A stretch of DNA of 32,081 bases from Clostridiales bacterium (lineage in GTDB: Bacteria; Bacillota; Clostridia; Oscillospirales; Butyricicoccaceae). The translations under genes and the position numbers were made by a program. Below the pieces are notes generated by a model. It made no database searches. It had not been told where the DNA came from and worked only from the letters and a program-made list of their open reading frames with translations. How positions within the stretch are numbered: position 1 is the first letter of the stretch; the number at the start of each line of letters is the position of its first letter. The stretch spans positions 1 to 32,081 of the forward strand of contig JALFIV010000081.1 in assembly GCA_022775385.1 (NCBI GenBank), written 5' to 3'. This document shows positions 1-13,879 of the stretch, piece after piece.

Positions 1-707
1 TCCTTGTACGGGACATCCGGATCGTTGATGCTGTGTGCACAGAACAGCGGACAGGGGAATTTGTCGCACAGGCGGAGGGAATAGTTCAAATAGAAGTATT
101 TCATCCGTCCCTCGTAAATCATCTCGCGCCATTTTCCGGTCTGACGCGCGTACACGTAGATCATGTAATGGGTGTCCAGATCGCCGTCTGCATGAACCTC
201 CGGACGGATCGAATCCAGACAGGATTCGCTGACTGCGGGGAGCTTGCGGTAATACGGCGTGGGTGCATCGAACCATCCGTCGCACAGAAAGCCGTAACCG
301 TAGTACGACAGAACCGCCGCCGGCTTTTTGCTGAGCTTGCCGCAGGCCGCGGCGAGCAGACAGAGATAGGCACCCGAAGAGCGTCCCCAGAGAACATACG
401 GGAGCGAACCATCGACGGTATCAATGTTTCCATCCAAATAATAATTCACAGAATCGCAGACGTCCTCCAGAATCTTGTCCAGCTTGACCACCGGCGCGAG
501 CGGGTAGTCGAAGGCGACAATCAGGTATCCCGCCTTGGTCAATGTTCTGATATGACCATCGGGAAGGTCGGTGCGCAGTCCGTAGAGAAGGCCGCCGCCG
601 TGAAAATACAGAATGCACGCCCGGGGCGTCACGTCTGAATCACGGTAAATTGTCAGGTATTTTTCGTAGGATGCGTCCGAAATCCGCTGATCCTCCTGCT
701 GAAGCAT
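1..707 (-). CDS. Alpha/beta hydrolase (esterase/lipase type), 3' end outside the window
   Basis: The reading frame is open from an ATG at 707 down to base 1, giving 235 codons with no stop, so the C-terminus lies outside the window. An AGGAGG site sits about 6 bases upstream of the start. Near residue 37 there is an HGGG oxyanion-hole motif. About 80 residues later comes a nucleophile elbow, Gly-Arg-Ser-Ser-Gly, and near the cut end a Ser-Ile-Asn-Asp-Pro-Asp stretch that fits the acid-residue loop. The catalytic His would be beyond the edge. These features place it in the alpha/beta hydrolase fold, close to the hormone-sensitive-lipase or acetyl-esterase type. The substrate is unknown. It is divergent from the ureide operon, and a role in that pathway is not shown by anything in its sequence. 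Confidence 0.85.
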   Translation of the reverse strand, partial: MLQQEDQRISDASYEKYLTIYRDSDVTPRACILYFHGGGLLYGLRTDLPDGHIRTLTKAGYLIVAFDYPLAPVVKLDKILEDVCDSVNYYLDGNIDTVDGSLPYVLWGRSSGAYLCLLAAACGKLSKKPAAVLSYYGYGFLCDGWFDAPTPYYRKLPAVSESCLDSIRPEVHADGDLDTHYMIYVYARQTGKWREMIYEGRMKYFYLNYSLRLCDKFPCPLFCAHSINDPDVPYK

Positions 708-779
708 GGGTATCCCTCCTGAAACTAACGGATTCCGGTCGAATTGCGCCGGATCCGTGTAAGAAATTCGATTGAACTA

Positions 780-984: not shown

Positions 985-1051
985 GGAATTGTAAAAAGTG
1001 GTTGACCGCAAAACGGATTTCAATCAAAATTTTAAGGGAGAAGGTACGAAT

Positions 1052-1843
1052 ATGGGATACTTAAACAATCAGATTGGTTACAGAGATGAGCTGCTGGCGA
1101 CCCGCTCGATCGTCAAGACGGAAAACTGGGTTCTGCTCGAGCCGGACGGACTGGTCAAGAACAGCATTCCGGGTTACGTAAACTGTGACACCACGATCCT
1201 GGGTTCCCCGGCAATGGGTGCATCGTTTGCCGACTACATCATCACCGTTCACGAGGGCGGCAAGAACGACGCCATCGGCGGAAATGGCATTGAGACCTTC
1301 CTCTATGTCATTGAAGGACAGGTCAAGGTCAAGAACGCCGACAAGGAAGCAGTCCTGACCGAGGGCGGATACTTCTACTCTCCGGAGGACAAGGCGCTGG
1401 GCTTTGAGCACTGCGGCGAGGGCGATGCCAAGCTCTATCTGTACAGACGCAGATACAGCAAGCTCGAGGGCTACGAGGCATACACGGTTTCCGGCAACGC
1501 AGAAGACCTTCCGTGGGAGTCCTACGAGGGCATGTCCAACTGCTACATCCGCGATTTCCTGCCGAAGGAGTTCGGCTTCGATATGAACATGCACATTCTG
1601 AAGTTCCACATCGGCGCTTCCCACGGATACATCGAGACCCATGTACAGGAGCACGGCATGTACTTCCTGAGCGGCAAGGGCATGTACCGTCTGGACGACG
1701 AGTGGATTCCGGTCAAGAAGGGCGACTACGTATTCATGGATGCGTACTGCCCGCAGGCATGCTACGCAGTCGGCGATGAGGGAAGAGAAGAGGTTCTCAC
1801 CTACATCTACTCCAAGGACTGCAACCGCGACGTCGAGTTATAA
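1052..1843 (+). CDS. allE: (S)-ureidoglycine aminohydrolase
   Basis: This bicupin enzyme removes ammonia from (S)-ureidoglycine to give (S)-ureidoglycolate. The chosen ATG at 1052 follows a GGGAGAAGG ribosome site, whereas an in-frame GTG at 998 has none. The resulting 263 aa match E. coli AllE in size. In the C-terminal cupin, Glu195, His197, His201 and Gln235 have the same spacing as the Mn2+ ligands I recall for the plant enzyme (Glu, His+2, His+6, Gln+40). The N-terminal cupin carries a typical glycine-rich beta-barrel segment near residues 65-115. It is the first gene of the operon, followed 84 bases later by allD, which takes its product. Codon use is strongly biased, suggesting high expression. 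Confidence 0.93.
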   Translation: MGYLNNQIGYRDELLATRSIVKTENWVLLEPDGLVKNSIPGYVNCDTTILGSPAMGASFADYIITVHEGGKNDAIGGNGIETFLYVIEGQVKVKNADKEAVLTEGGYFYSPEDKALGFEHCGEGDAKLYLYRRRYSKLEGYEAYTVSGNAEDLPWESYEGMSNCYIRDFLPKEFGFDMNMHILKFHIGASHGYIETHVQEHGMYFLSGKGMYRLDDEWIPVKKGDYVFMDAYCPQACYAVGDEGREEVLTYIYSKDCNRDVEL

Positions 1844-1927
1844 TTCGGATATGATTTGGTGCGGCGGACGGTTTGGGAGAAAGCCGGCGCTGCTCGTGTG
1901 AAATATAGAAAGGAAGGAAACACCAAT

Positions 1928-2980
1928 ATGAAAGTATCGCGTGAAGAACTCAAGAGCCTGATGAAGAACAAGATGGTCAAGGCCGGCCTGCGTGAGGATC
2001 ATGCAGAGCAGACCGCAGAGGTGCTGACCTGGTCGCACGAGAGAGGCTATGACTCCCACGGTGCGGTCCGCGTCGAGTATTACAGCGAGCGCATCGCCAA
2101 GGGCGGCATTACGCACGATCCGAAGTTCACCTGGAAGGAAACCGGTCCGTGCTCCGGCATTTTCGACGGCGACAACGGTGTCGGCTACGTCGTTGCAATC
2201 GAGGGCATGAAGAAGGCCATCGAGATGGCAAAGAAGAACGGCGTTGCAATCGTCGGCATGACCAACATGTCCCACAGCGGCTCGATCGGCTACTACGCTG
2301 AGATGGCTGCCAAGGAGGATCTGGTTGCGATCACGTTCTGCCAGTCCGACCCGATGGCAGTTCCGTACGGCGGCACCGAGCCGTACTACGGCACCAACCC
2401 GATTTCGTTCGCGGCTCCGACCGCAGACGACCGCCGCGTTGTATTCGACATGGCGACCACCGTTCAGGCATGGGGCAAGATCCTGTCCAAGCGTTCCAAG
2501 CACGAGCAGATTCCGGATACCTGGGCTGTCGACGAAAAGGGTCAGCCGGTTACCGATCCGAATCTGGTCAACGCATTGGTTCCGATCGCAGGCGCAAAGG
2601 GCTACGGCCTGATGATGATGGTTGACATCTTCTCCGGCGTCCTGCTGGGCGTTCCGTTCGGCAAGCACGTCAGCTCCATGTATCACGACCTGTCCAAGGG
2701 CAGAGAGCTGGGCCAGATGCATATCGTCATCGATCCGGCACGCTTCGTCGGCGTTGAGGAGTTCAAGAAGAGAATGTCTCAGGTATGCGACGAGTTGGGC
2801 GAGATGCCGGCAGCTGAGGGCTACGGCAAGGTCTACTATCCGGGTGAGAGAGCGATCATGCGCCGCGACAAGGCTTACGCTTCCGGCGGCATCGACGTTG
2901 TCGACGAGATCTACGACTATCTGAAGAGCGACGACATCCACTTCGACAGATACGATCACAAGAACAGATTTGCAGACTAA
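1928..2980 (+). CDS. allD: Ureidoglycolate dehydrogenase (NAD/NADP), malate/lactate dehydrogenase type 2 family
   Basis: It oxidises (S)-ureidoglycolate to oxalurate with reduction of NAD(P)+. The ATG at 1928 has an AAGGAAGG site at 1909-1917 and yields 350 aa, against 349 in E. coli AllD. An upstream extension from 1856 lacks a ribosome site and looks non-coding. Family features include the N-terminal helical segment with His-Gly-Ala (SHGAVRVEYY) near residues 40-50, the NMSHSGSIGYY block near 118-128 and the YGTNPISFAAP nucleotide-binding segment near 157-167. The near-terminal KGYGLMMMVDIFSG block is also typical. It lies between allE and the carbamoyltransferase fusion, in the order of the pathway. 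Malate or lactate dehydrogenase activity is the alternative for the wider family, but the neighbours make ureidoglycolate by far the likeliest substrate. Confidence 0.92.
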   Translation: MKVSREELKSLMKNKMVKAGLREDHAEQTAEVLTWSHERGYDSHGAVRVEYYSERIAKGGITHDPKFTWKETGPCSGIFDGDNGVGYVVAIEGMKKAIEMAKKNGVAIVGMTNMSHSGSIGYYAEMAAKEDLVAITFCQSDPMAVPYGGTEPYYGTNPISFAAPTADDRRVVFDMATTVQAWGKILSKRSKHEQIPDTWAVDEKGQPVTDPNLVNALVPIAGAKGYGLMMMVDIFSGVLLGVPFGKHVSSMYHDLSKGRELGQMHIVIDPARFVGVEEFKKRMSQVCDELGEMPAAEGYGKVYYPGERAIMRRDKAYASGGIDVVDEIYDYLKSDDIHFDRYDHKNRFAD

Positions 2981-3036: not shown

Positions 3037-6000
3037 ATGTTAAGAACCGTAGTAAAAAAGGGAAGCTATCAGGATTCCGTTGTACTCATGCTCTTGACCA
3101 ACGAGATCTCGACGCTCGAAGGCGTCAAGAAGGTTTCCATCATGATGGCAACCCCGGCGAACAAGGATATCTTTAAGCAGAGCGGTCTGGACACCGAAGA
3201 GCTGATGGCCGCTACTGCAAACGACATGGTAGTTGTTGCAGACGTTGACGACGAGGCGATGCTCGACGTCATCATGGAGAACGTAGAAGAGTTCCTGAAG
3301 AAGCAGGCGACCTCCAATAACGCAGCCAAGGGCACCGAGAGCGTCAAGTCCTGGGACAAGGCGCTGGAGAAGCTGCCGGATGCCAACCTCGCAGTCATCT
3401 CCATCCCGGGCGCATACGCAGCACTCGAGGCTGACCGCGCACTGGATCAGGGTCTGAACGTATTCATGTTCAGCGACAACGTCACGATTGAGGACGAGAA
3501 GGCACTCAAGGAGAAGGCACACGCAAAGGGCCTGTCGGTTATGGGTCCGGACTGCGGCACCGGCATCATTCAGGGTGTTCCGATCGCATTCACCAACAGC
3601 GTATCCAAGGGCTCCATCGGCATCATCGGCGCTTCCGGCACCGGTATTCAGGAGCTGACTACCATCATTGACCGTCTGGGCGAGGGCGTCAACAACGCAA
3701 TCGGCACCGGCGGACGCGACCTGTCCACCACGGTCGGCGGCATCACGATGATGGATATGATCGACGCGATGGAGAAGGACGAGACCGTCAAGGTTCTGAT
3801 CGTTATCTCCAAGCCGCCGGCACAGGCAGTCCGTGAGAAGATCTCCGCACGCCTGAGCGGATTCTCCAAGCCGGTCATCACCCTGTTCCTGGGCGAGAAG
3901 CCGGAGTATCACGAGGAGAACTTCTACCACACCTACACGCTGGATGAGGCTGCCCGCCTGGCAGTCAGCCTGGTCCGCGGCAAGGAAGTTCCGGAAGCTA
4001 CCGTCGACGTCGACGAGTCCGAGTTCTACAAGGCTGAGGACAACAAGACCATCAAGGCATACTACTCCGGCGGCACGCTCGCAAACGAGGCGGCGATGCT
4101 GATCAAGGACGCGCTGAACGTCACCGATCCGCCGGAAGATATCGAGGGCTACATGCTGCAGCTCGACGGCAACATCGTCGTTGACCTCGGCGACGACGCA
4201 TACACTCAGGGCAAGCCGCATCCGATGATCGATCCGGCAAAGCGCATCGAGTGCATGCAGGAAGCAGTAGACGACGAGTCCACCGGCGTCATCCTGCTTG
4301 ACATCATGCTGGGTTACGGCTCGCATCCGGACATGGCCGGTGCACTGCTGCCGACCATCAAGGAGCTGCAGGCAAAGGCTGACGCTGCAAACAGAAAGGT
4401 ATTCTTCGTCGCTACCGTATGCGGCACCCGCAGAGACTATCAGGGCTATGACGAAGCTGTCAACAAGCTGAAGGAAGCCGGCGTTATCGTCTGCGAGAAC
4501 AACAAGCTCGCATGCCAGACCGCAATCCGTGCGATCGGCAGAGACTTTGTTGAGCCGGTCAAGCCGATCCGTCCGAAGACGGTTGTCGAGATCGAGAAGA
4601 ACGAGCCGTCCGACAAGCTGATGCAGATGCTCTCCGAGAAGCCGAAGATCATCAACGTCGGTCTGAAGAGCTTCGCAGAGGTCTGCGAGGAGTTCGGCTG
4701 TGAGGTCGTACAGTACGACTGGATGCCGCCGGCAGGAGGCAATATCAAGCTGATCAAGACCCTGAACTTCCTGAGAAATTACGAGGGCATTGATGAGAAG
4801 AACCGCGAGGTTATCGCAAAGGTTGTTGCGAGCCAGCCGATCCTGAAGGACAACGTCCGCGCCAAGGAAGTCATTCCGGAAATGCGCGAGGGCAAGGTCA
4901 TCCTCCACGCTGGTCCTCCGGTAGCATACGAGAACATGCCTGACCCGATGCAGGGCTCCTGCGTAGGCGCTGTTCTGTTCGAGGAGTGGGCAGACAACGA
5001 AGCAGACGCAAGAAAGATGCTCGAGAACGGCGAGATCAAGTTTATTCCGTGCCACCACGTCAACGCAGTCGGCCCGATGGGCGGCATCACCTCCCCGAAC
5101 ATGGCTGTCTTTGTTGTTGAGAACGAGACCGACGGACATCGTGCATACTGCACCATGAACGAGGGCATCGGCAAGGTACTCCGCTTCGGCGCGTACTCCG
5201 AGGAAGTTGTCAACCGTCTGCGCTGGATGAGAGACGTTCTGGGTCCGGTACTCGGCAGAGCGCTCCGCTCCATGGACAACGGTCTGGCACTCAATCCGCT
5301 GATCGCAAAGGCGGTTGCAATGGGCGACGAGTTCCATCAGAGAAACATCGCAGCATCCCTCGCATTCCTGAAGGAAGTTGCTCCGATCATCACCAAGATG
5401 GACGGCCTGGACGAGAAGGACCGCTACGACGTCATCAAGTTCCTGGCTGATACCGATCAGTTCTTCCTGAACATCATGATGGCGACCGGCAAGGCGGTTA
5501 TGGACTCCGCGCGCGACGGCACCGACGGCACGATCGTCACCGCAATGTGCAGAAACGGCTATGAGTTCGGTATCCGCATCGCCGGCATGGGCGACGAGTG
5601 GTTTACCGGTCCGGTTAACACCCCGCAGGGTCTGTACTTCACCGGCTATGACGCTGAGGACGCGTGCCCGGATATGGGCGACAGCGCCATCACCGAGACC
5701 TTCGGTGTCGGCGGCATGGCGATGATCGCAGCTCCGGCTGTTACCCGCTTCGTCGGTGCAGGCGGCTACGAGGACGCACTGCGCACCAGCAACGAGATGA
5801 TGGAGATCGTAATCGACCGCAACCCGAACTTCACCGTCCCGACCTGGAACTTCCAGGGCATCTGCCTCGGCATCGACGCCCGTCTGGTTGTCGAGAAGGG
5901 CATCACCCCGGTTATCAACACCGGTATCGCACACAAGATCGCCGGCTACGGTCAGGTTGGTGCAGGTACCGTTCATCCGCCGATCGAAGCATTCGAGAAG

Positions 6001-6042
6001 GCAGTCGTCGCTTACGCAAAGAAGCTGGGCTTCGAGGCATAA
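3037..6042 (+). CDS. fdrA: FdrA-YlbE fusion: predicted oxamate (oxalurate) carbamoyltransferase, AllF+AllG in one chain
   Basis: This 1001-aa protein joins two proteins that are separate in E. coli. Residues 1 to about 515 are FdrA/AllF, a succinyl-CoA-synthetase-alpha-like fold. It shows GPDCGTG at 170-176, the Rossmann-like GIIGASGTGIQE at 195-206 and GTGGRDLSTTVGG near 223-235. After a linker of about 10-20 residues, residue 529 onward is YlbE/AllG (DUF1116), opening with IINVGLKSFAEVC and the MPPAGGN block near 563-569. In E. coli, AllF, AllG and AllH form oxamate carbamoyltransferase, converting oxalurate + phosphate to oxamate + carbamoyl phosphate. The fused length is close to the sum of the two E. 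coli subunits, so neither half looks truncated. No AllH (DUF2877) gene is present in the window. A GAAGGAG site precedes the ATG at 3037. The two downstream genes are carbamate kinases that use the product. The fusion could have arisen by loss of the stop codon between adjacent genes. Confidence 0.9.
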   Translation: MLRTVVKKGSYQDSVVLMLLTNEISTLEGVKKVSIMMATPANKDIFKQSGLDTEELMAATANDMVVVADVDDEAMLDVIMENVEEFLKKQATSNNAAKGTESVKSWDKALEKLPDANLAVISIPGAYAALEADRALDQGLNVFMFSDNVTIEDEKALKEKAHAKGLSVMGPDCGTGIIQGVPIAFTNSVSKGSIGIIGASGTGIQELTTIIDRLGEGVNNAIGTGGRDLSTTVGGITMMDMIDAMEKDETVKVLIVISKPPAQAVREKISARLSGFSKPVITLFLGEKPEYHEENFYHTYTLDEAARLAVSLVRGKEVPEATVDVDESEFYKAEDNKTIKAYYSGGTLANEAAMLIKDALNVTDPPEDIEGYMLQLDGNIVVDLGDDAYTQGKPHPMIDPAKRIECMQEAVDDESTGVILLDIMLGYGSHPDMAGALLPTIKELQAKADAANRKVFFVATVCGTRRDYQGYDEAVNKLKEAGVIVCENNKLACQTAIRAIGRDFVEPVKPIRPKTVVEIEKNEPSDKLMQMLSEKPKIINVGLKSFAEVCEEFGCEVVQYDWMPPAGGNIKLIKTLNFLRNYEGIDEKNREVIAKVVASQPILKDNVRAKEVIPEMREGKVILHAGPPVAYENMPDPMQGSCVGAVLFEEWADNEADARKMLENGEIKFIPCHHVNAVGPMGGITSPNMAVFVVENETDGHRAYCTMNEGIGKVLRFGAYSEEVVNRLRWMRDVLGPVLGRALRSMDNGLALNPLIAKAVAMGDEFHQRNIAASLAFLKEVAPIITKMDGLDEKDRYDVIKFLADTDQFFLNIMMATGKAVMDSARDGTDGTIVTAMCRNGYEFGIRIAGMGDEWFTGPVNTPQGLYFTGYDAEDACPDMGDSAITETFGVGGMAMIAAPAVTRFVGAGGYEDALRTSNEMMEIVIDRNPNFTVPTWNFQGICLGIDARLVVEKGITPVINTGIAHKIAGYGQVGAGTVHPPIEAFEKAVVAYAKKLGFEA

Positions 6043-6076: not shown

Positions 6077-7015
6077 ATGAAGGAAAAGAGAACGATTGTC
6101 GTTGCCCTGGGCGGAAACGCCCTCGGCAATGACATAGACGAACAGAAGGTTGCGGTAGCAAAAACGGCGAAGGTAATTGTCGATCTGGCAGAGCAGGATT
6201 TGAACATTGTCATCACCCACGGAAACGGTCCGCAGGTTGGCATGATTCAGACTGCGATGGATAATGTTGTGGTTCGATACAAGAACTACAAGCAGGTTCC
6301 GCTGCCGGGCAGCATTGCCATGAGTCAGGGATACATCGGACTGGATCTGCAGAATGCAATCAAGTACGAACTGTACAGCCGCGGCATTGACGGTAAGGTT
6401 TCTACTATCCTGTCGCAGATCGAGGTCGATAAAAACGATCCGGCGTTCCAGCATCCGACCAAGCCGATCGGACGGTTTATGACAAAGGAAGAGGCGGAGA
6501 TCAATGAGTCGCATGGCATCCCGTGCATGGAAGATGCGGGGAGAGGCTATCGAATCGTGGTTCCGTCCCCGATGCCGAAGCGCGTCCGCGAGCTGGAGAC
6601 GGTCAAGACGCTGCTCCGAGCCGGACACATTGTCATCACTTGCGGCGGCGGCGGAATGCCGGTCGTCGACGAGGATGGCAGACTCACGGGTGTCAACGCA
6701 GTGGTTGACAAGGATAACGTCAGCTGCCTGCTGGCAGACAGACTGGATGCCGATCAGTTGATCATTCTGACCGCAGTGGAATACGCAGCGCTGAATTTCC
6801 GCAAGGAAAATCAGGTCTGGCTGAAAGACATCACGGTGGAACAGGCCAGGCAATATGTGAAGGAAGGGCACTTCGCCCCGGGCTCCATGCTGCCGAAGGT
6901 CGAAGCATCCATCCGGTTTGCGGAATCCAAGCCAGGACGCCGCTCCCTGATCACCCTGCTGGACAAGGCGACAGACGGCCTTGCCGGCAAAACCGGAACA
7001 AGCATACACCTATAA
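6077..7015 (+). CDS. arcC: Carbamate kinase, copy 1
   Basis: It makes ATP from carbamoyl phosphate and ADP, releasing carbamate (CO2 + NH3). The 312-aa length is usual for ArcC/AllK. The N-terminal ALGGNAL motif is at residues 10-16 and the THGNGPQVG motif at 47-55. A Lys-Pro-Ile-Gly-Arg-Phe segment follows near 128-133, as in amino-acid-kinase-fold carbamate kinases. TCGGGGMPV and the terminal AGKTGT block are also typical. It starts 34 bases after the fusion gene with a modest AAGGA ribosome site. By eye about three quarters of its residues match copy 2, so the two look like a tandem duplication. Copy 1 has several differences in the variable strip after the GNGPQVG motif (residues about 66-79). 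Confidence 0.95.
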   Translation: MKEKRTIVVALGGNALGNDIDEQKVAVAKTAKVIVDLAEQDLNIVITHGNGPQVGMIQTAMDNVVVRYKNYKQVPLPGSIAMSQGYIGLDLQNAIKYELYSRGIDGKVSTILSQIEVDKNDPAFQHPTKPIGRFMTKEEAEINESHGIPCMEDAGRGYRIVVPSPMPKRVRELETVKTLLRAGHIVITCGGGGMPVVDEDGRLTGVNAVVDKDNVSCLLADRLDADQLIILTAVEYAALNFRKENQVWLKDITVEQARQYVKEGHFAPGSMLPKVEASIRFAESKPGRRSLITLLDKATDGLAGKTGTSIHL

Positions 7016-7143: not shown

Positions 7144-8079
7144 ATGGGAAGGAAAAAGGTAGTGATTGCCCTAGGCGGCAATGCCCTTGGCAAGGACGTT
7201 GAAGAGCAGAAGAAAGCTGTTGAAAAGACCGCGAAAGTAATCGTGGATCTGGCGCAGCAGGATCTGGATATCATTATCACGCACGGAAACGGTCCGCAGG
7301 TCGGCATGATTCAGGACGCGATGGACAATCTGGTTGTCATTCAGGACAACCTCAAGCAGATCCCGCTCCCGACTTGTGTTGCCATGAGCCAGGGCTATAT
7401 TGGAATTGATTTACAGAACGCCATCAAGTATGAGCTGTACAAGCGCAACATTGACGGCAAGGTTTCGACCATTCTGTCTCAGGTTGAGGTGGATAAGGAC
7501 GATCCGGCATTTCAGAATCCGACCAAGCCGATCGGCCGCTTCCTGACCAAGGAAGAGGCGGAGATCAATGAGTCGCACGGCGTACGCTGCATGGAGGATG
7601 CGGGACGCGGCTACCGCGTTGTTGTCGCTTCTCCGATGCCCAAGCGCATCCGTGAGCTGGAGACAATCAAGACGCTGGTCGGCGCCGGCCACATCGTCAT
7701 CACCTGCGGCGGCGGCGGTATTCCGGTTGCCAGCGAGAACGGCAAGCTGGTCGGTGTCAATGCAGTTATCGACAAGGACAACGCGAGCAGCCTGCTGGCG
7801 GCACAGCTGGGGGCGGACTATCTGATTATCCTGACCGCAGTCGAAAAGGTTGCGATCAATTTCGGCAAGGAGAATCAGGAGTGGCTGTCCGATCTGACGG
7901 TTGAGCAGGCCAAGCAGTACATCGCGGAGGAGCAGTTTGCCAAGGGCTCCATGCTGCCGAAGGTTGAGGCTGCAATCCGCTTTGCGGAGTCTGCACCGGG
8001 ACGCCATGCGCTCATCACGCTGCTGGACAAGGCAAGCGAGGGCGTGGCCGGAAAGACGGGTACCGTCATTCACGTATAA
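7144..8079 (+). CDS. arcC: Carbamate kinase, copy 2
   Basis: A second full-length carbamate kinase, 311 aa, with the same motifs as copy 1: ALGGNAL at 8-14, THGNGPQVG at 45-53, PTKPIGRF, CGGGGIPV and the C-terminal AGKTGT. No key residue appears lost, so both copies should be active. It follows a GATTGGAGGCG ribosome site. Having two kinases directly behind the enzyme that makes carbamoyl phosphate fits a high-flux ATP-yielding step. One copy could instead serve another carbamoyl-phosphate source such as arginine deimination, but no arc genes are here. Confidence 0.95.
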   Translation: MGRKKVVIALGGNALGKDVEEQKKAVEKTAKVIVDLAQQDLDIIITHGNGPQVGMIQDAMDNLVVIQDNLKQIPLPTCVAMSQGYIGIDLQNAIKYELYKRNIDGKVSTILSQVEVDKDDPAFQNPTKPIGRFLTKEEAEINESHGVRCMEDAGRGYRVVVASPMPKRIRELETIKTLVGAGHIVITCGGGGIPVASENGKLVGVNAVIDKDNASSLLAAQLGADYLIILTAVEKVAINFGKENQEWLSDLTVEQAKQYIAEEQFAKGSMLPKVEAAIRFAESAPGRHALITLLDKASEGVAGKTGTVIHV

Positions 8080-8258: not shown

Positions 8259-9872
8259 ATGAATATACCAATCAATCTGTTTATGTGGGTAATGGCATTC
8301 CTGCCGATTATCGTACTGTTGTTTTTGCTGATTAAATGCGGTTGGGGTGCGACGGAGGCGGCTCCGGTCGGTCTGCTGATCACGATCTTCACCGGCATTT
8401 TCTTCTACAAAGCCGACATTACGCTGATTGCGGCTGAGAGTGCCAAAGGCATTTGGAATGCTTTGATCATTCTGCTGATTGTCTGGACGGCGATCCTGAT
8501 GTATCAGGTCGGCGACGAGGCAAAGGCATTTCTGGTCATTCGAAACGGCATGCGCAAGCTTCTGCCGAATGAGCTGCTTCTGGTTCTGGCGATGGGCTGG
8601 ATCTTTGAGAGCTTTCTGCAGGGCATCACCGGCTTCGGTGTTCCGGTTGCGGTCGGCGCACCGCTGCTGATGGGAATCGGCGTCACGCCGCTGTGGGCGG
8701 TCATCATTCCGCTGTTCGGTCAGGCGTGGGGCAACACGTTCGGTACACTGGGTGCGGCGTGGGATTCGCTCGCCATGTCCGCCAATCTGGCGGTCGGCAG
8801 TCCGGAATACTGGATGACCGCGCTTTGGACTGCGGGCTTTATCTGGTTCTGGACCGTGATTGCCGGCTTCGCATTCTGCTGGTTCTACGGCAAAGGCAAA
8901 GCGATCAAGAAGGGTCTGCCGGCAGTGCTGATTCTGTCCACCATTCAGGGCGGCGGCGAGCTGCTGCTCAGTCAGGTCAACACGACAATTTCGTGCTTTG
9001 TTCCGGCCTGCATCTCGCTGATCGTCATCCTGCTTCTGGGACGCACCAAGATGTACCGCGAGGACTGGAGCATCGAGGACAGTCCGATCATGAATCGCAA
9101 GGCTTCGAGCGGAGCGGATTCGTCGGAGGAGCTGCCGGACATGACGCTGGTACAGGCGTTTGTTCCGTACTTCGTTCTGTCGGCCATCACGCTGATTGTT
9201 CTGGTCGTTAAACCGATCAATTCGTTCCTCGGACAGATTTCCTTTGGTTTCTCGTTCCCGGAGACGGTGACGGGATATGGATACGTCAACGCGGCGGTTG
9301 AGAAGTTCTCCGCACTGACACCGTTTACCCATGCGAGTATGTTCCTGTTCGTCTCGGCGATGATCGGTCTGATCTACTATAAGAAGAACGGATGGATCAA
9401 GGAGGGCGGCGTCAAGCGCGTCTTTGTCAAGTCGATCTCCATGACCATGCCGTCCGGCATCGCGGTCATCGGTCTGGTCATCATGTCCAAGATCATGGAT
9501 GGCACGGGACAGACACAGGTTCTCGCAAACGGTATCGCCAATGTACTCGGCAATATTTATGTCATTCTGGCGCCGTTTGTCGGACTGCTCGGCACGTTTA
9601 TGACGGGCAGCAACATGAGCTCGAACATTCTCTTCGGCGGCTTCCAGATGACGACAGCAAACCTGCTGCATCTCGATCCCGCACCGATCCTCGGCGCACA
9701 GTCCGCCGGCGGTGCGATCGGCAGTGCGGTCAGCCCGAGCAAGATCATCCTCGGAACGACAACGGCAGGCATCCTCGGCAGTGAGGGCGAGGTTCTCAAA
9801 CGGATTATCTTGATCACGGTGCCCGTGGCCATCATCATCGGCCTGATTTTGTTTGCAGTCGTCGGCATATAA
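8259..9872 (+). CDS. LctP-family (L-lactate/glycolate permease type) carboxylate transporter
   Basis: A 537-aa polytopic membrane protein with roughly 13 hydrophobic segments along its length. The family-defining block ESFLQGITGFGVPVAVGAP is at residues 117-135. The distal TGSNMSSNILFGGFQ and QSAGGAIGSAVSPSKI blocks are also characteristic of LctP/LldP permeases. Known members carry lactate and glycolate by proton symport. In this operon the cargo is probably a ureide-pathway acid: oxamate is a close structural analogue of pyruvate and lactate and would be the end product, so oxamate export is one idea. Glyoxylate, oxalurate or allantoate uptake are others. The ATG at 8259 has only a weak ribosome site (TTAGGAT). 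The small membrane gene follows 13 bases after the stop. Confidence 0.88.
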   Translation: MNIPINLFMWVMAFLPIIVLLFLLIKCGWGATEAAPVGLLITIFTGIFFYKADITLIAAESAKGIWNALIILLIVWTAILMYQVGDEAKAFLVIRNGMRKLLPNELLLVLAMGWIFESFLQGITGFGVPVAVGAPLLMGIGVTPLWAVIIPLFGQAWGNTFGTLGAAWDSLAMSANLAVGSPEYWMTALWTAGFIWFWTVIAGFAFCWFYGKGKAIKKGLPAVLILSTIQGGGELLLSQVNTTISCFVPACISLIVILLLGRTKMYREDWSIEDSPIMNRKASSGADSSEELPDMTLVQAFVPYFVLSAITLIVLVVKPINSFLGQISFGFSFPETVTGYGYVNAAVEKFSALTPFTHASMFLFVSAMIGLIYYKKNGWIKEGGVKRVFVKSISMTMPSGIAVIGLVIMSKIMDGTGQTQVLANGIANVLGNIYVILAPFVGLLGTFMTGSNMSSNILFGGFQMTTANLLHLDPAPILGAQSAGGAIGSAVSPSKIILGTTTAGILGSEGEVLKRIILITVPVAIIIGLILFAVVGI

Positions 9873-10097: not shown

Positions 10098-10128
10098 CTG
10101 CCGCTCTTCCGGAATGGGAGGGCGGCAG
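10098..10128 (+). other. Strong 13-bp intercistronic hairpin before allC
   Basis: Bases 10098-10110 pair with 10116-10128 across a GGAAT loop, 13 pairs with two G-U wobbles. It begins 6 bases after the stop of the small membrane gene. The sequence after it is AATAAAAAG, with no T-run, so it is not a conventional terminator. It may protect the upstream mRNA or set the level of allC. Confidence 0.6.
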
Positions 10129-10176
10129 AATAAAAAGAGCAGAGACGTTATGAGAGCGGACAAAGGAGGAACTGAC

Positions 10177-11415
10177 ATGGCAATTGAAGATATCACTGGA
10201 AGAATTGCGCGTGATCTGGAACATTTAAAGCAACATACGGCGACGCCGGGTGAAGGCTGCACCCGTCTTCCGTTTACCAAGGAAGCGAGAGATGCGGTTG
10301 AGTTTCTGAAGCAGCTCATGGCGGAAGCCGGCCTCGAAGTATCGGAAGATGCTGCGGGCAACGTGATCGGCATCCTGAAGGGAGAGGATCCGGAAGCTCC
10401 GTGTGTCATGATGGGTTCGCACTACGACTCGGTTGTCAACGGCGGCGATTACGACGGCATTGCCGGCGTCATCAGCGCGATTGAGGTTGCAAGACAGCTG
10501 CAGGAGAGCGGCGTACCGCGCAAGTGTAACTTCGTTGCGGTCGGCTTCTGCGACGAGGAGGGCATGCGTTTCGGCACCGGTTACTTCGGCTCGGGCGCGA
10601 TGCTCGGCAACCGCGACGTCGAGTACTGCAAAAACTTCAAGGACACCGACGGCATCTCCATCTATGATGCGATGAAGGGCTATGGTCTGGATCCGGAGCG
10701 CATCGGCGAGGCCAAGTGGCCGGCCGGTTCCATCGGACATTTTCTGGAGGCGCACATCGAGCAGGGTCCGGTTCTGGATGCGGAGAACATCGAGATCGGT
10801 CTGGTCGACTGCATCGTCGGCATTCAGCGATATATGGTAACCGTACACGGCCGCGCGGATCACGCGGGAACGACGCCGATGGACATGCGTCTGGACGCTG
10901 TCGACGCGGCAACCAAGGTCATTTCCAAGATCCCGGATTGGGCGCGCGAGAAGGCAGACGGAACGGTTGCAACCACCGGATATATTAACACGGTTCCGGG
11001 CGGTATGAACATTGTTGCAGAGAAAGTTGAATTCACGGTTGACATTCGCTCGAAAAACAATGATAATATTAATGATATCGCGCGCCGAATTCGTGCTGCT
11101 CTGGACCGTGAGGTCAGTGCAATGGGCGGAAGCTACGAAATAGACACCAAACTGGTCATTACCCCGGTAAACCTTTCTCAGGAGATGCTTTCCGTGATGG
11201 AGGAGAGCTGCAAGGCTCATGACTACAGCTACAAGTATCTGCCTAGCGGAGCGGGTCACGACTCGCTGGAGATCGGTCAGGTTCTGCCGACCGTCATGAT
11301 TTTTGTCCCGAGCAAAGAGGGCAGAAGCCATTGTCCGGTAGAATTTACCAAGTATAGCGATCTTGCAAAGGCATCTGTCGTTATGGCAGAGCTGGCGCAG
11401 AAGCTTCTGGGGTAA
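10177..11415 (+). CDS. allC: Allantoate amidohydrolase
   Basis: It hydrolyses allantoate to ureidoglycine, CO2 and ammonia, feeding AllE. The ATG at 10177 follows an AAAGGAGGA site and gives 412 aa, against 411 in E. coli AllC. In-frame ATGs at 10114 and 10150 lack such a site. It is an M20/M28-type dinuclear metallo-amidohydrolase: His82 and Asp93 (GSHYDS...GGDYDG), the acidic pair Glu127-Glu128 in CDEEGMRFG, a HIEQGP segment, and a terminal GAGHDS His match the metal ligands of the E. coli enzyme. The related N-carbamoyl-L-amino-acid hydrolases are the main alternative, but the surrounding genes point to allantoate. Confidence 0.93.
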   Translation: MAIEDITGRIARDLEHLKQHTATPGEGCTRLPFTKEARDAVEFLKQLMAEAGLEVSEDAAGNVIGILKGEDPEAPCVMMGSHYDSVVNGGDYDGIAGVISAIEVARQLQESGVPRKCNFVAVGFCDEEGMRFGTGYFGSGAMLGNRDVEYCKNFKDTDGISIYDAMKGYGLDPERIGEAKWPAGSIGHFLEAHIEQGPVLDAENIEIGLVDCIVGIQRYMVTVHGRADHAGTTPMDMRLDAVDAATKVISKIPDWAREKADGTVATTGYINTVPGGMNIVAEKVEFTVDIRSKNNDNINDIARRIRAALDREVSAMGGSYEIDTKLVITPVNLSQEMLSVMEESCKAHDYSYKYLPSGAGHDSLEIGQVLPTVMIFVPSKEGRSHCPVEFTKYSDLAKASVVMAELAQKLLG

Positions 11416-11480: not shown

Positions 11481-12482
11481 ATGGACGAAGTGAAATTAAA
11501 CGCAGAAAACAAACGATATAATGTTCGGTTTTTGCGGAGATATTTGAATCTGACACAAAAGGAGTTTATCAATCAGTTTTTGTGCGACGAGAATGACAAA
11601 CCGTCTATGAGTATTGCGACCCTTTCCAATCTGGAGGCGAAGGGCGGTCCGCGGATCAACGAAGTGATTCTGGCGGCGTCCGAGAGTCTCGGAATTGATG
11701 TGATGTTCTTTTCCATGGAACCGGAGCAGTTTGCAGAACGGATCAGTCTCGTCCTTCCGAACAATCAGGAAGTCGACACGATCCAGCAGAGTTCCAAAAA
11801 GAGAAATATCGACCAGCTGCTCAACCGGCTGACGATGTATTTTGCGGAACAGCTGTTTGACAAGACACTGAAAAAGGGAGATAAAGTGGAATCCGATCGT
11901 GTTCTGGCGCGGAAACTTGGGGTGGGGCGGTCCGCCGTGCGCGAGGCGCTCAAAGTGCTGGACATCCTCGGCATGATTGATATCCGTCCGGGACAGGGCA
12001 CCTTCATCAGCAGTGATGAAGCCAACTTTTTCGTTGTTCCGCTCTCGTGGTCGCTGTTTTTGAACGGCGGACAGACCGAGAGCATTCTGGAAGTGCGCAA
12101 TGTACTGGAAAAAAAGGCGGCGGAGCTGGCGGCAGAATCCACACAGGAGGATGCGCTGCAGAAGCTGTCCGAGATCTCGCATCAGATTCATGAATCGTAC
12201 GTACAGCAGAACTATCAGGCCTTTTTGAACTGCGATATTGATTTTCACATTTGTCTTGCGGAATGTTCCGGCAATCAGATCATTTACAGCATGATTCAGA
12301 TCATCAGCAACCTCATGCGGCAGATCAGCGGAACTGGCATGGCGGATGAGAATCAGCTTCGGGAGATCTATGAGGAACATCGTCTGGTGTACGGCGCGGT
12401 GCTGGCGCATGACGCGGAGGCGGCAGGCCGCTATATGGAGGAACACCTGCACAAATCCATGCTGCGCTACAACTACCGATAA
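11481..12482 (+). CDS. XRE-GntR-FCD fusion transcriptional regulator
   Basis: A 333-aa regulator with three parts. Residues about 10-75 resemble an XRE/Cro helix-turn-helix (LRRYLNLTQKEFINQF, then SIATLSNLEAKGGP). Residues about 112-180 are a clear GntR winged helix (GDKVESDRVLARKLGVGRSAVREAL, with a wing at GQGTFIS). Residues about 190-325 are an FCD ligand domain with the expected Asp/His metal residues in CDIDFHICL and the later EEHRLV and EEHLH segments. FadR-subfamily regulators normally have only the GntR DNA-binding domain, so the extra N-terminal HTH is unusual. It is the last gene of the ureide operon and probably senses a pathway acid. The likely target is the palindrome before allE. 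A GCAGAGG site precedes the ATG at 11481. Confidence 0.85.
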   Translation: MDEVKLNAENKRYNVRFLRRYLNLTQKEFINQFLCDENDKPSMSIATLSNLEAKGGPRINEVILAASESLGIDVMFFSMEPEQFAERISLVLPNNQEVDTIQQSSKKRNIDQLLNRLTMYFAEQLFDKTLKKGDKVESDRVLARKLGVGRSAVREALKVLDILGMIDIRPGQGTFISSDEANFFVVPLSWSLFLNGGQTESILEVRNVLEKKAAELAAESTQEDALQKLSEISHQIHESYVQQNYQAFLNCDIDFHICLAECSGNQIIYSMIQIISNLMRQISGTGMADENQLREIYEEHRLVYGAVLAHDAEAAGRYMEEHLHKSMLRYNYR

Positions 12483-12611: not shown

Positions 12612-13835
12612 TTATGCGTTCTTGTAGACTTCCAGTGCGGCTGCAACGCCTTCGCCGGCCGGAACCTTGACATGGTTCTGGAGCAGAACGGCCTCGAGAG
12701 CACCCAGCGTGAGCAGGATGTTTCTCTTCTGGCTGGAGTAGCCCATGTTGCCGATACGGATGATCTTGCCGTCGAGCGGGCCGAAGGAGGTGGCAACCTC
12801 GATGCCGAAGTCGTTCAGCATCTGACCGCGCAGCGTCGGGCCGTCGATGCCCTCCGGAATGTTGATGGCGGTGACAACTGGCATCTTGTTCTTGCGGTCG
12901 CCGAAGATGGTCAGACCCATTGCCTCCAGACCGGCACACAGTGCCTTGTCGTTCAGGCTGTGGCGGGCAAAACGCTCCTCCAGACCTTCGGTCAGGATGC
13001 AGCGCAGCGCCTCGTGGACGGCGTACTGCATGCAGGTTGCCTCGGTGTGGTGGTTCAGGCGGCGCGGGCTCCAGTAGTCCTCGAGCTGTGCCATATCGAG
13101 GTAGTTGCTCGGGATACCCGGCAGCTTGCCGTCGACGTCGCTGCTCGTGCGGATGCCCTTCTCAACCTTCTTTCTCGCGTGCGCGATGGCGGAGATCTTG
13201 TCGTTGTAGGTGATGAGCGCGGAGCCGGACGGTGCGGAGATGCACTTCTGGGTGCCGGCGATACAGCCGTCGATGCCCCACTCATCGACGCGGATGTCGA
13301 CGCCGCCGAGGGTTGCGACCGTGTCGACGATCAGCAGGGCGTCATACTTCTTGCAGAGCTTGCCGATCTCTTCCATCGGCTGCATCATGGAGGTGGAGGT
13401 CTCGCCGTGGATGCAGGCGACTGCCTTGTAGCCGCCCTTCTTGAGTTCGGCTTCGATCTCGTCCGGCTCAAAGACGGTGCCCCACTCGCGCTCGATCAGC
13501 GTGATCTCTGCGCCGCAGCGCTCGAGGATCTCGGAGAGCAGGTAGCCGAAACGGCCGAATGCCGGAATCAGGACCTTGTCGCCCGGGCAGATTGCACCGG
13601 TGAGGACGGTCTCCAGACCGCCGCGGGAGGTCGTGTCGACAACATAGGTCTGCTGGTTCTTGGTCTGGAATACCTGACGCGCCATTTCCATGGTCTCGGT
13701 CATGAGCGCGGTAAACTCCGGGTCGAACTGACCGAGGATATGGTAGGACATGGCGCGGAGGACGCGCGGGTCGGCGTCAACCGGGCCGGGACACATGAGC
13801 AGGCGAGGTGACGGATTGATTTCTTTAAAATTCAT
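12612..13835 (-). CDS. pucG: PucG-like aminotransferase: (S)-ureidoglycine-glyoxylate or alanine-glyoxylate transaminase
   Basis: A 407-aa class-V PLP enzyme of the alanine-glyoxylate aminotransferase family. The cofactor lysine is Lys197 in AGTQKCISAPSG, and the PLP Asp lies in the IVDTVATLGG segment at about 169-178. The PTLRGQM and RIGNMGYSS segments near the C-terminus are typical. B. subtilis PucG transfers the amino group of ureidoglycine to glyoxylate, giving oxalurate and glycine; alanine- or serine-glyoxylate transaminases share the fold. Closeness to allC/allE/allD and the oxalurate-using fusion favours the PucG role, which would give a second route to oxalurate. It is transcribed toward the ureide operon with its own promoter. 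The ATG at 13835 is preferred to an adjacent GTG because it is spaced better from AAGAAGG. Confidence 0.82.
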   Translation of the reverse strand: MNFKEINPSPRLLMCPGPVDADPRVLRAMSYHILGQFDPEFTALMTETMEMARQVFQTKNQQTYVVDTTSRGGLETVLTGAICPGDKVLIPAFGRFGYLLSEILERCGAEITLIEREWGTVFEPDEIEAELKKGGYKAVACIHGETSTSMMQPMEEIGKLCKKYDALLIVDTVATLGGVDIRVDEWGIDGCIAGTQKCISAPSGSALITYNDKISAIAHARKKVEKGIRTSSDVDGKLPGIPSNYLDMAQLEDYWSPRRLNHHTEATCMQYAVHEALRCILTEGLEERFARHSLNDKALCAGLEAMGLTIFGDRKNKMPVVTAINIPEGIDGPTLRGQMLNDFGIEVATSFGPLDGKIIRIGNMGYSSQKRNILLTLGALEAVLLQNHVKVPAGEGVAAALEVYKNA

Positions 13836-13879
13836 CACAGAACCTTCTTTCTGATAATAATTTCAAACTCGACGCTTTT

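Follow-up and report, generated by a model that had tools for sequence, protein, structure and literature searches.

In Escherichia coli, the formation of oxamate was lost on deletion of allF or allG and nearly lost on deletion of allH; all three genes together restored oxamate in complementation, and the activity was present in a preparation of AllF, AllG, and AllH after purification (PMC11326118). The text of that paper gives 0 for each of the three deletions without plasmid, its table being hard to read for allH. For decades this oxamic transcarbamylase was an orphan activity; the 2024 paper in which it was identified left the arrangement of its subunits in E. coli unsettled. The stretch of DNA analyzed here (the window) is a complete contig of 32,081 bp, one of 142 in a draft genome, and it holds AllF-like and AllG-like sequence in a single open reading frame (ORF). 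The initial annotation of this locus proposed that either AllH is encoded elsewhere or the fused form works without it. We therefore asked whether the fusion represents a simpler enzyme or a rearranged form of the known one.

A single chain for AllF and AllG

The frame runs from an ATG to a stop codon with no internal stop and encodes 1,001 amino acids (Table 1). Residues 1 to 579 matched the NCBIfam model NF004760 (FdrA) at 717 bits against a cut-off of 433, and the Pfam AllG model PF06545 matched residues 667 to 883 (E = 8.4e-95, 316.8 bits). Among solved structures, E. coli FdrA (3DMY) spanned residues 80 to 581 and an uncharacterized AllG homologue (3CLQ) spanned residues 582 to 993. Both were solved as separate proteins, and here they match one chain end to end; as the two matches abut at 581/582, the halves are joined directly, with no linker. 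Identity to the E. coli K-12 proteins was 42% for the AllF half and 58% for the AllG half. These matches bear out the initial annotation, which had described FdrA and YlbE/DUF1116 halves in one frame of 1,001 amino acids. Pfam and NCBIfam scans of the fused protein returned only FdrA, succinyl-CoA ligase-type, CoA-binding and AllG models, with no match to a domain of the classical transcarbamylase superfamily (ATCase/OTCase/YgeW).

At the junction, the AllF C terminus (..LNFLRNYE) runs directly into the start of AllG (..IDEKNREVIAK), where the fused protein has no Met. An AlphaFold2 model of the fusion predicted, with moderate confidence, a helix at residues 570 to 581, a three-residue turn, and a second helix at 585 to 597. 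The model had a mean pLDDT of 76 and was poor in the C-terminal region (863 to 979), and was therefore used for the junction only.

To find homologues, the AllG half was used as the query in a scan of named bacterial genomes, and ORFs were then analyzed. The same domain order, AllF then AllG in one full-length frame of about 1,000 amino acids, was found in contigs of 72 other species, several of them isolates. The hosts are mostly Lachnospiraceae, and also include Butyricicoccus, Eubacteriaceae, Mogibacterium, Pseudoramibacter, and four Pasteurellaceae. Two AllG frames of 817 to 850 amino acids (L131, L132) were rejected as fusions, their upstream part having no similarity to AllF.

Table 1. 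Features of the fused locus, with positions in the window
Feature	Position	Strand	Basis
Alpha/beta-hydrolase-like gene, cut by contig end, divergent from allE	1..710	-	translation and homologues
allE, (S)-ureidoglycine aminohydrolase	998..1843	+	TIGR03214, 329 bits
allD, ureidoglycolate dehydrogenase (makes oxalurate)	1856..2980	+	TIGR03175, 570 bits, above cut-off
Fused AllF-AllG (FdrA-YlbE) subunit, putative oxamate carbamoyltransferase	3037..6042	+	AllF ~1-581, AllG ~582-1001
AllF (FdrA) half	3037..4779	+	NF004760, CoA-binding PF02629, Ligase_CoA PF00549, 3DMY
AllG (YlbE, formerly DUF1116) half	4780..6039	+	PF06545, 3CLQ, identity to E. coli AllG
Carbamate kinase 1	6077..7015	+	TIGR00746, E = 1.7e-102; NF009007 above cut-off
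Carbamate kinase 2	7144..8079	+	TIGR00746, 361 bits, above cut-off
LctP-family permease, candidate oxamate exporter	8259..9872	+	PF02652
allC-type allantoate amidohydrolase	10114..11415	+	NF006771, 445 bits, above cut-off
GntR/FCD-family regulator	11481..12482	+	PF07729, PF00392
Class V aminotransferase, PucG-like ureidoglycine-glyoxylate aminotransferase	12612..13838	-	PF00266; 3ISL, 3NNK

AllH in the genome and among relatives

No AllH gene is present within the 32,081-bp window. A search of the whole genome with the DUF2877 (AllH) model PF11392, however, gave one match in an intact frame on another contig (G000:C17:10955-11260(-); E = 2.8e-25, 90 bits). The absence of AllH that the initial annotation had noted thus held for the window and not for the genome, loss of the gene from the genome was ruled out, and the first of its two alternatives, an AllH encoded elsewhere, proved correct. 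The initial annotation had named such a DUF2877 gene, if required for activity, as a refutation; the presence of the gene is established here. The AllH ORF comprises 282 amino acids and is divergent from an allantoinase gene and a cytosine/purine/allantoin-type permease gene. When aligned with other AllH proteins, including that of E. coli, it retained the motifs GxGxGLTPSxDD and GHxSGxDT intact. Its identity to E. coli AllH was only 28%, which leaves room for a possible shift of role.

A sister genome (G008) carries on a single contig, in order, the aminotransferase gene, gntR, allC, lctP, two carbamate kinase genes, the fused allFG, allD, allE, the alpha/beta-hydrolase gene, the permease gene, allB, a divergent AllH gene, and purF. 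There, AllH lies upstream of the fused gene at a distance of 6.4 kb and is divergent from the allantoin cluster. The window (contig C84) and contig C17 hold the two halves of this order, and from this synteny we infer that they are adjacent in the genome and that the locus was split by assembly. The start of a 59-amino-acid ORF at the end of C17, NRAMP-like by eye, had no match in the sister loci.

AllH was also retained in nearly all genomes with the fusion that were searched whole. Fifty genomes reached through their loci were searched, 49 with the fused gene and one (L103) with split genes; AllH was present in 49, which included 48 of the 49 with the fusion. In the genus and family of the window, all six genomes with AllG had AllH as well. 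Within the fetched flanks of the 72 fused loci, AllH was seen in 33, divergent in 28 of them; it lay 1.8 to 8 kb upstream in 32 and 32 bp downstream in Faecalicatena faecalis. Across 398 genomes of the phylum, 53 had both AllG and AllH, 5 AllG only, 2 AllH only, and 338 neither (Fisher p = 1.7e-57; the genomes are related and not independent, so that p overstates the association, but the pattern is clear). Two relatives seemed to have AllH and no AllG. One (G002) is 72% complete; in the other (G005) the contig stops shortly after allD, at the expected position of allFG, and its lack of AllG is likely an assembly gap.

These data bear on what the fused chain may do by itself. E. coli with allFG but without allH still formed oxamate, at 7% of the wild-type level (PMC11326118); on this ground AllH may not be an absolute requirement, and there is a small chance of activity in its absence. 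The fused chain could be imagined as the catalytic core itself, and AllH as an activator, substoichiometric or dispensable, that has its own promoter; we regard this as improbable, though were it true, the fusion would let an AllH-independent oxamate carbamoyltransferase be studied. Less probable still is the second alternative of the initial annotation, that the fused form works without AllH as a simpler enzyme. Besides the residual E. coli activity, it could draw on the fact that most fused loci have AllH apart from the main operon and on one genome with the fusion and no AllH match (L086/G492). That genome is a fragmented metagenome-assembled genome whose contig is only 14 kb long, and the alternative is contradicted by the retention of AllH in the window's own genome and in nearly all further fused genomes, as well as by the co-occurrence of AllG and AllH across the phylum.

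Gene neighborhood and oxalurate supply

Genes for making oxalurate (allE, allD) and for using carbamoyl phosphate (two carbamate kinases) are linked to the fused gene, and the linkage is kept in relatives: allD was found in 64 of 68 fused loci and carbamate kinase in 63 of 65. The tandem arrangement of carbamate kinase genes also occurs in the sister genome, whereas most other fused loci have one. Homologues of the alpha/beta-hydrolase were seen at 65 of the 72 fused loci and at split loci, including two of Listeria. Two ORFs without a family, 33-638(+) and 12672-13811(+), were rejected as genes, being antisense shadows of the minus-strand alpha/beta-hydrolase and class V aminotransferase genes, respectively. 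Among the 61 fused loci whose downstream sequence extends for 3 kb or more, 58 have an LctP-family permease gene beside the fused and carbamate kinase genes, those of Pasteurellaceae included. Oxamate is an analogue of lactate and pyruvate and a dead-end product, which makes this permease a candidate oxamate exporter.

The closest solved relatives of the aminotransferase were PucG (3ISL, E = 2.4e-152) and a ureidoglycine-glyoxylate aminotransferase (3NNK, E = 3.2e-130). Ramazzina et al. reportedly showed in 2010 that the latter enzyme converts ureidoglycine and glyoxylate to oxalurate and glycine. Three Butyricicoccus genomes that carry the fusion gave no match to AllE or AllD, and two of the three have the PucG-like aminotransferase at the locus. 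More broadly, the fused loci without allD and allE, Butyricicoccus and Anaerostipes loci among them, have the aminotransferase in four cases (L069, L071, L072, L092), and two more (L051, L068) are truncated by a contig end near the fused gene. This distribution suggests a possible supply of oxalurate independent of AllD; the genome of the window encodes both AllD and the PucG-like aminotransferase.

The same three protein families as in E. coli AllFGH (FdrA-YlbE-YlbF; PMC11326118) are found here with the same neighbors, namely AllD, AllE, AllC, allantoinase, and carbamate kinase. The E. coli proteins are three separate polypeptides, whereas AllF and AllG form one chain here, and we do not treat separateness as essential to the family. 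Unlike in E. coli, AllH is not co-operonic with the other subunits; its gene is divergent and lies beyond the other end of the cluster. The stretch of the E. coli allantoin locus that was examined lacks the LctP permease and the PucG-type aminotransferase.

A paralogue acting on a substrate other than oxalurate was also considered. PF06545 does include divergent split members within the phylum, about 47 to 56% identical, that fall outside the clade of E. coli AllG and the fused proteins. The fused protein, however, groups with E. coli AllG in the tree, its AllG half is 58% identical to E. coli AllG, and its gene sits among allE, allD, allC, and carbamate kinase, so that a paralogue of this kind is very unlikely. 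Unlikeliest of all, to the point of being negligible, is an assembly or sequencing error joining two genes, for which the draft state of the genome might speak and which the initial annotation had named as a possible refutation: it is excluded by the 72 independent full-length fused frames with their conserved junction, and in each of the six AllG-bearing genomes from the genus and family of the window, AllG is part of a single frame of about 1,000 amino acids.

Origin and meaning of the fusion

In the AllG tree, 72 fused sequences (71 homologues and the window) and three contig-truncated sequences formed one clade with support of 99. F. faecalis AGMB00832 (L098) is fused, as here, yet falls outside this clade, and its AllH gene follows the fused gene in the same orientation, an order shared with E. 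coli and in contrast to the window's. The tree thus needs two changes, which may be two fusion events or a single one followed by splits; a single origin was not rejected (p-AU 0.36). AllF and AllG are split in E. coli, Listeria, Clostridium sp. E02, and Faecalicatena contorta NLAE-zl-C134. The latter three (L103, L104, L106-L108) have close AllF, AllG, and AllH homologues in allantoin clusters, with AllG 76 to 79% identical, but their AllF and AllG are encoded by separate genes, 4 to 23 bp apart in the four loci measured. In two Listeria loci, AllH and carbamate kinase matches share one open frame of 586 (L106) and 469 (L107) amino acids, and are separate in the third (L108); this frame is possibly a second fusion in the pathway.

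The fused genes of the four Pasteurellaceae (L090, L096, L101, L102) are in a clade nested among Bacillota sequences, which suggests horizontal transfer of the allantoin cluster. In the window's family, AllG occurs in only 2 of 15 sampled genera, and the AllG sequences closest to the window's outside its genus are mostly from Lachnospiraceae; the distribution and these relatives suggest that the window locus, too, was acquired horizontally.

In the literature searched, which takes in only a minority of subscription journals, neither a published description of an AllF-AllG fusion nor biochemical work on a fused form was found; the passages covered include those on the E. coli enzyme, the CanOE prediction (PMC3364942), and AllFGH in nitrifiers (PMC12625717). 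To call the fusion undescribed is a limited claim, as the architecture is already present in public genome records.

Overall, the ORF most probably (about 0.9) encodes a fused AllF-AllG subunit of oxamate carbamoyltransferase (oxamic transcarbamylase, EC 2.1.3.5) that has a separately encoded AllH as its partner and carries out the phosphorolysis described for E. coli, on whose enzyme the proposed activity and need for AllH are modeled. In this scheme, AllD, and probably the PucG-like aminotransferase, would supply oxalurate, which the fused chain, joined in trans by AllH, would convert with phosphate to oxamate and carbamoyl phosphate; the adjacent carbamate kinases would then use the carbamoyl phosphate to yield ATP, ammonia, and CO2. 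The fusion would set AllF and AllG at 1:1 and place the C-terminal helix of AllF beside the N-terminal helix of AllG.

The best reading is thus a real, conserved gene fusion in a known enzyme, a rearranged form and not a simpler one. Its natural occurrence in dozens of gut bacteria implies a 1:1 AllF:AllG unit with the AllF C terminus next to the AllG N terminus. Such a unit agrees with the equal amounts that Kim and Kim proposed from SDS-PAGE, although their own western blot did not show equality. The fusion also offers a single-chain construct for structure determination. Allantoin is a purine waste product, and these loci indicate that many Lachnospiraceae and some Pasteurellaceae encode its anaerobic breakdown to oxamate.
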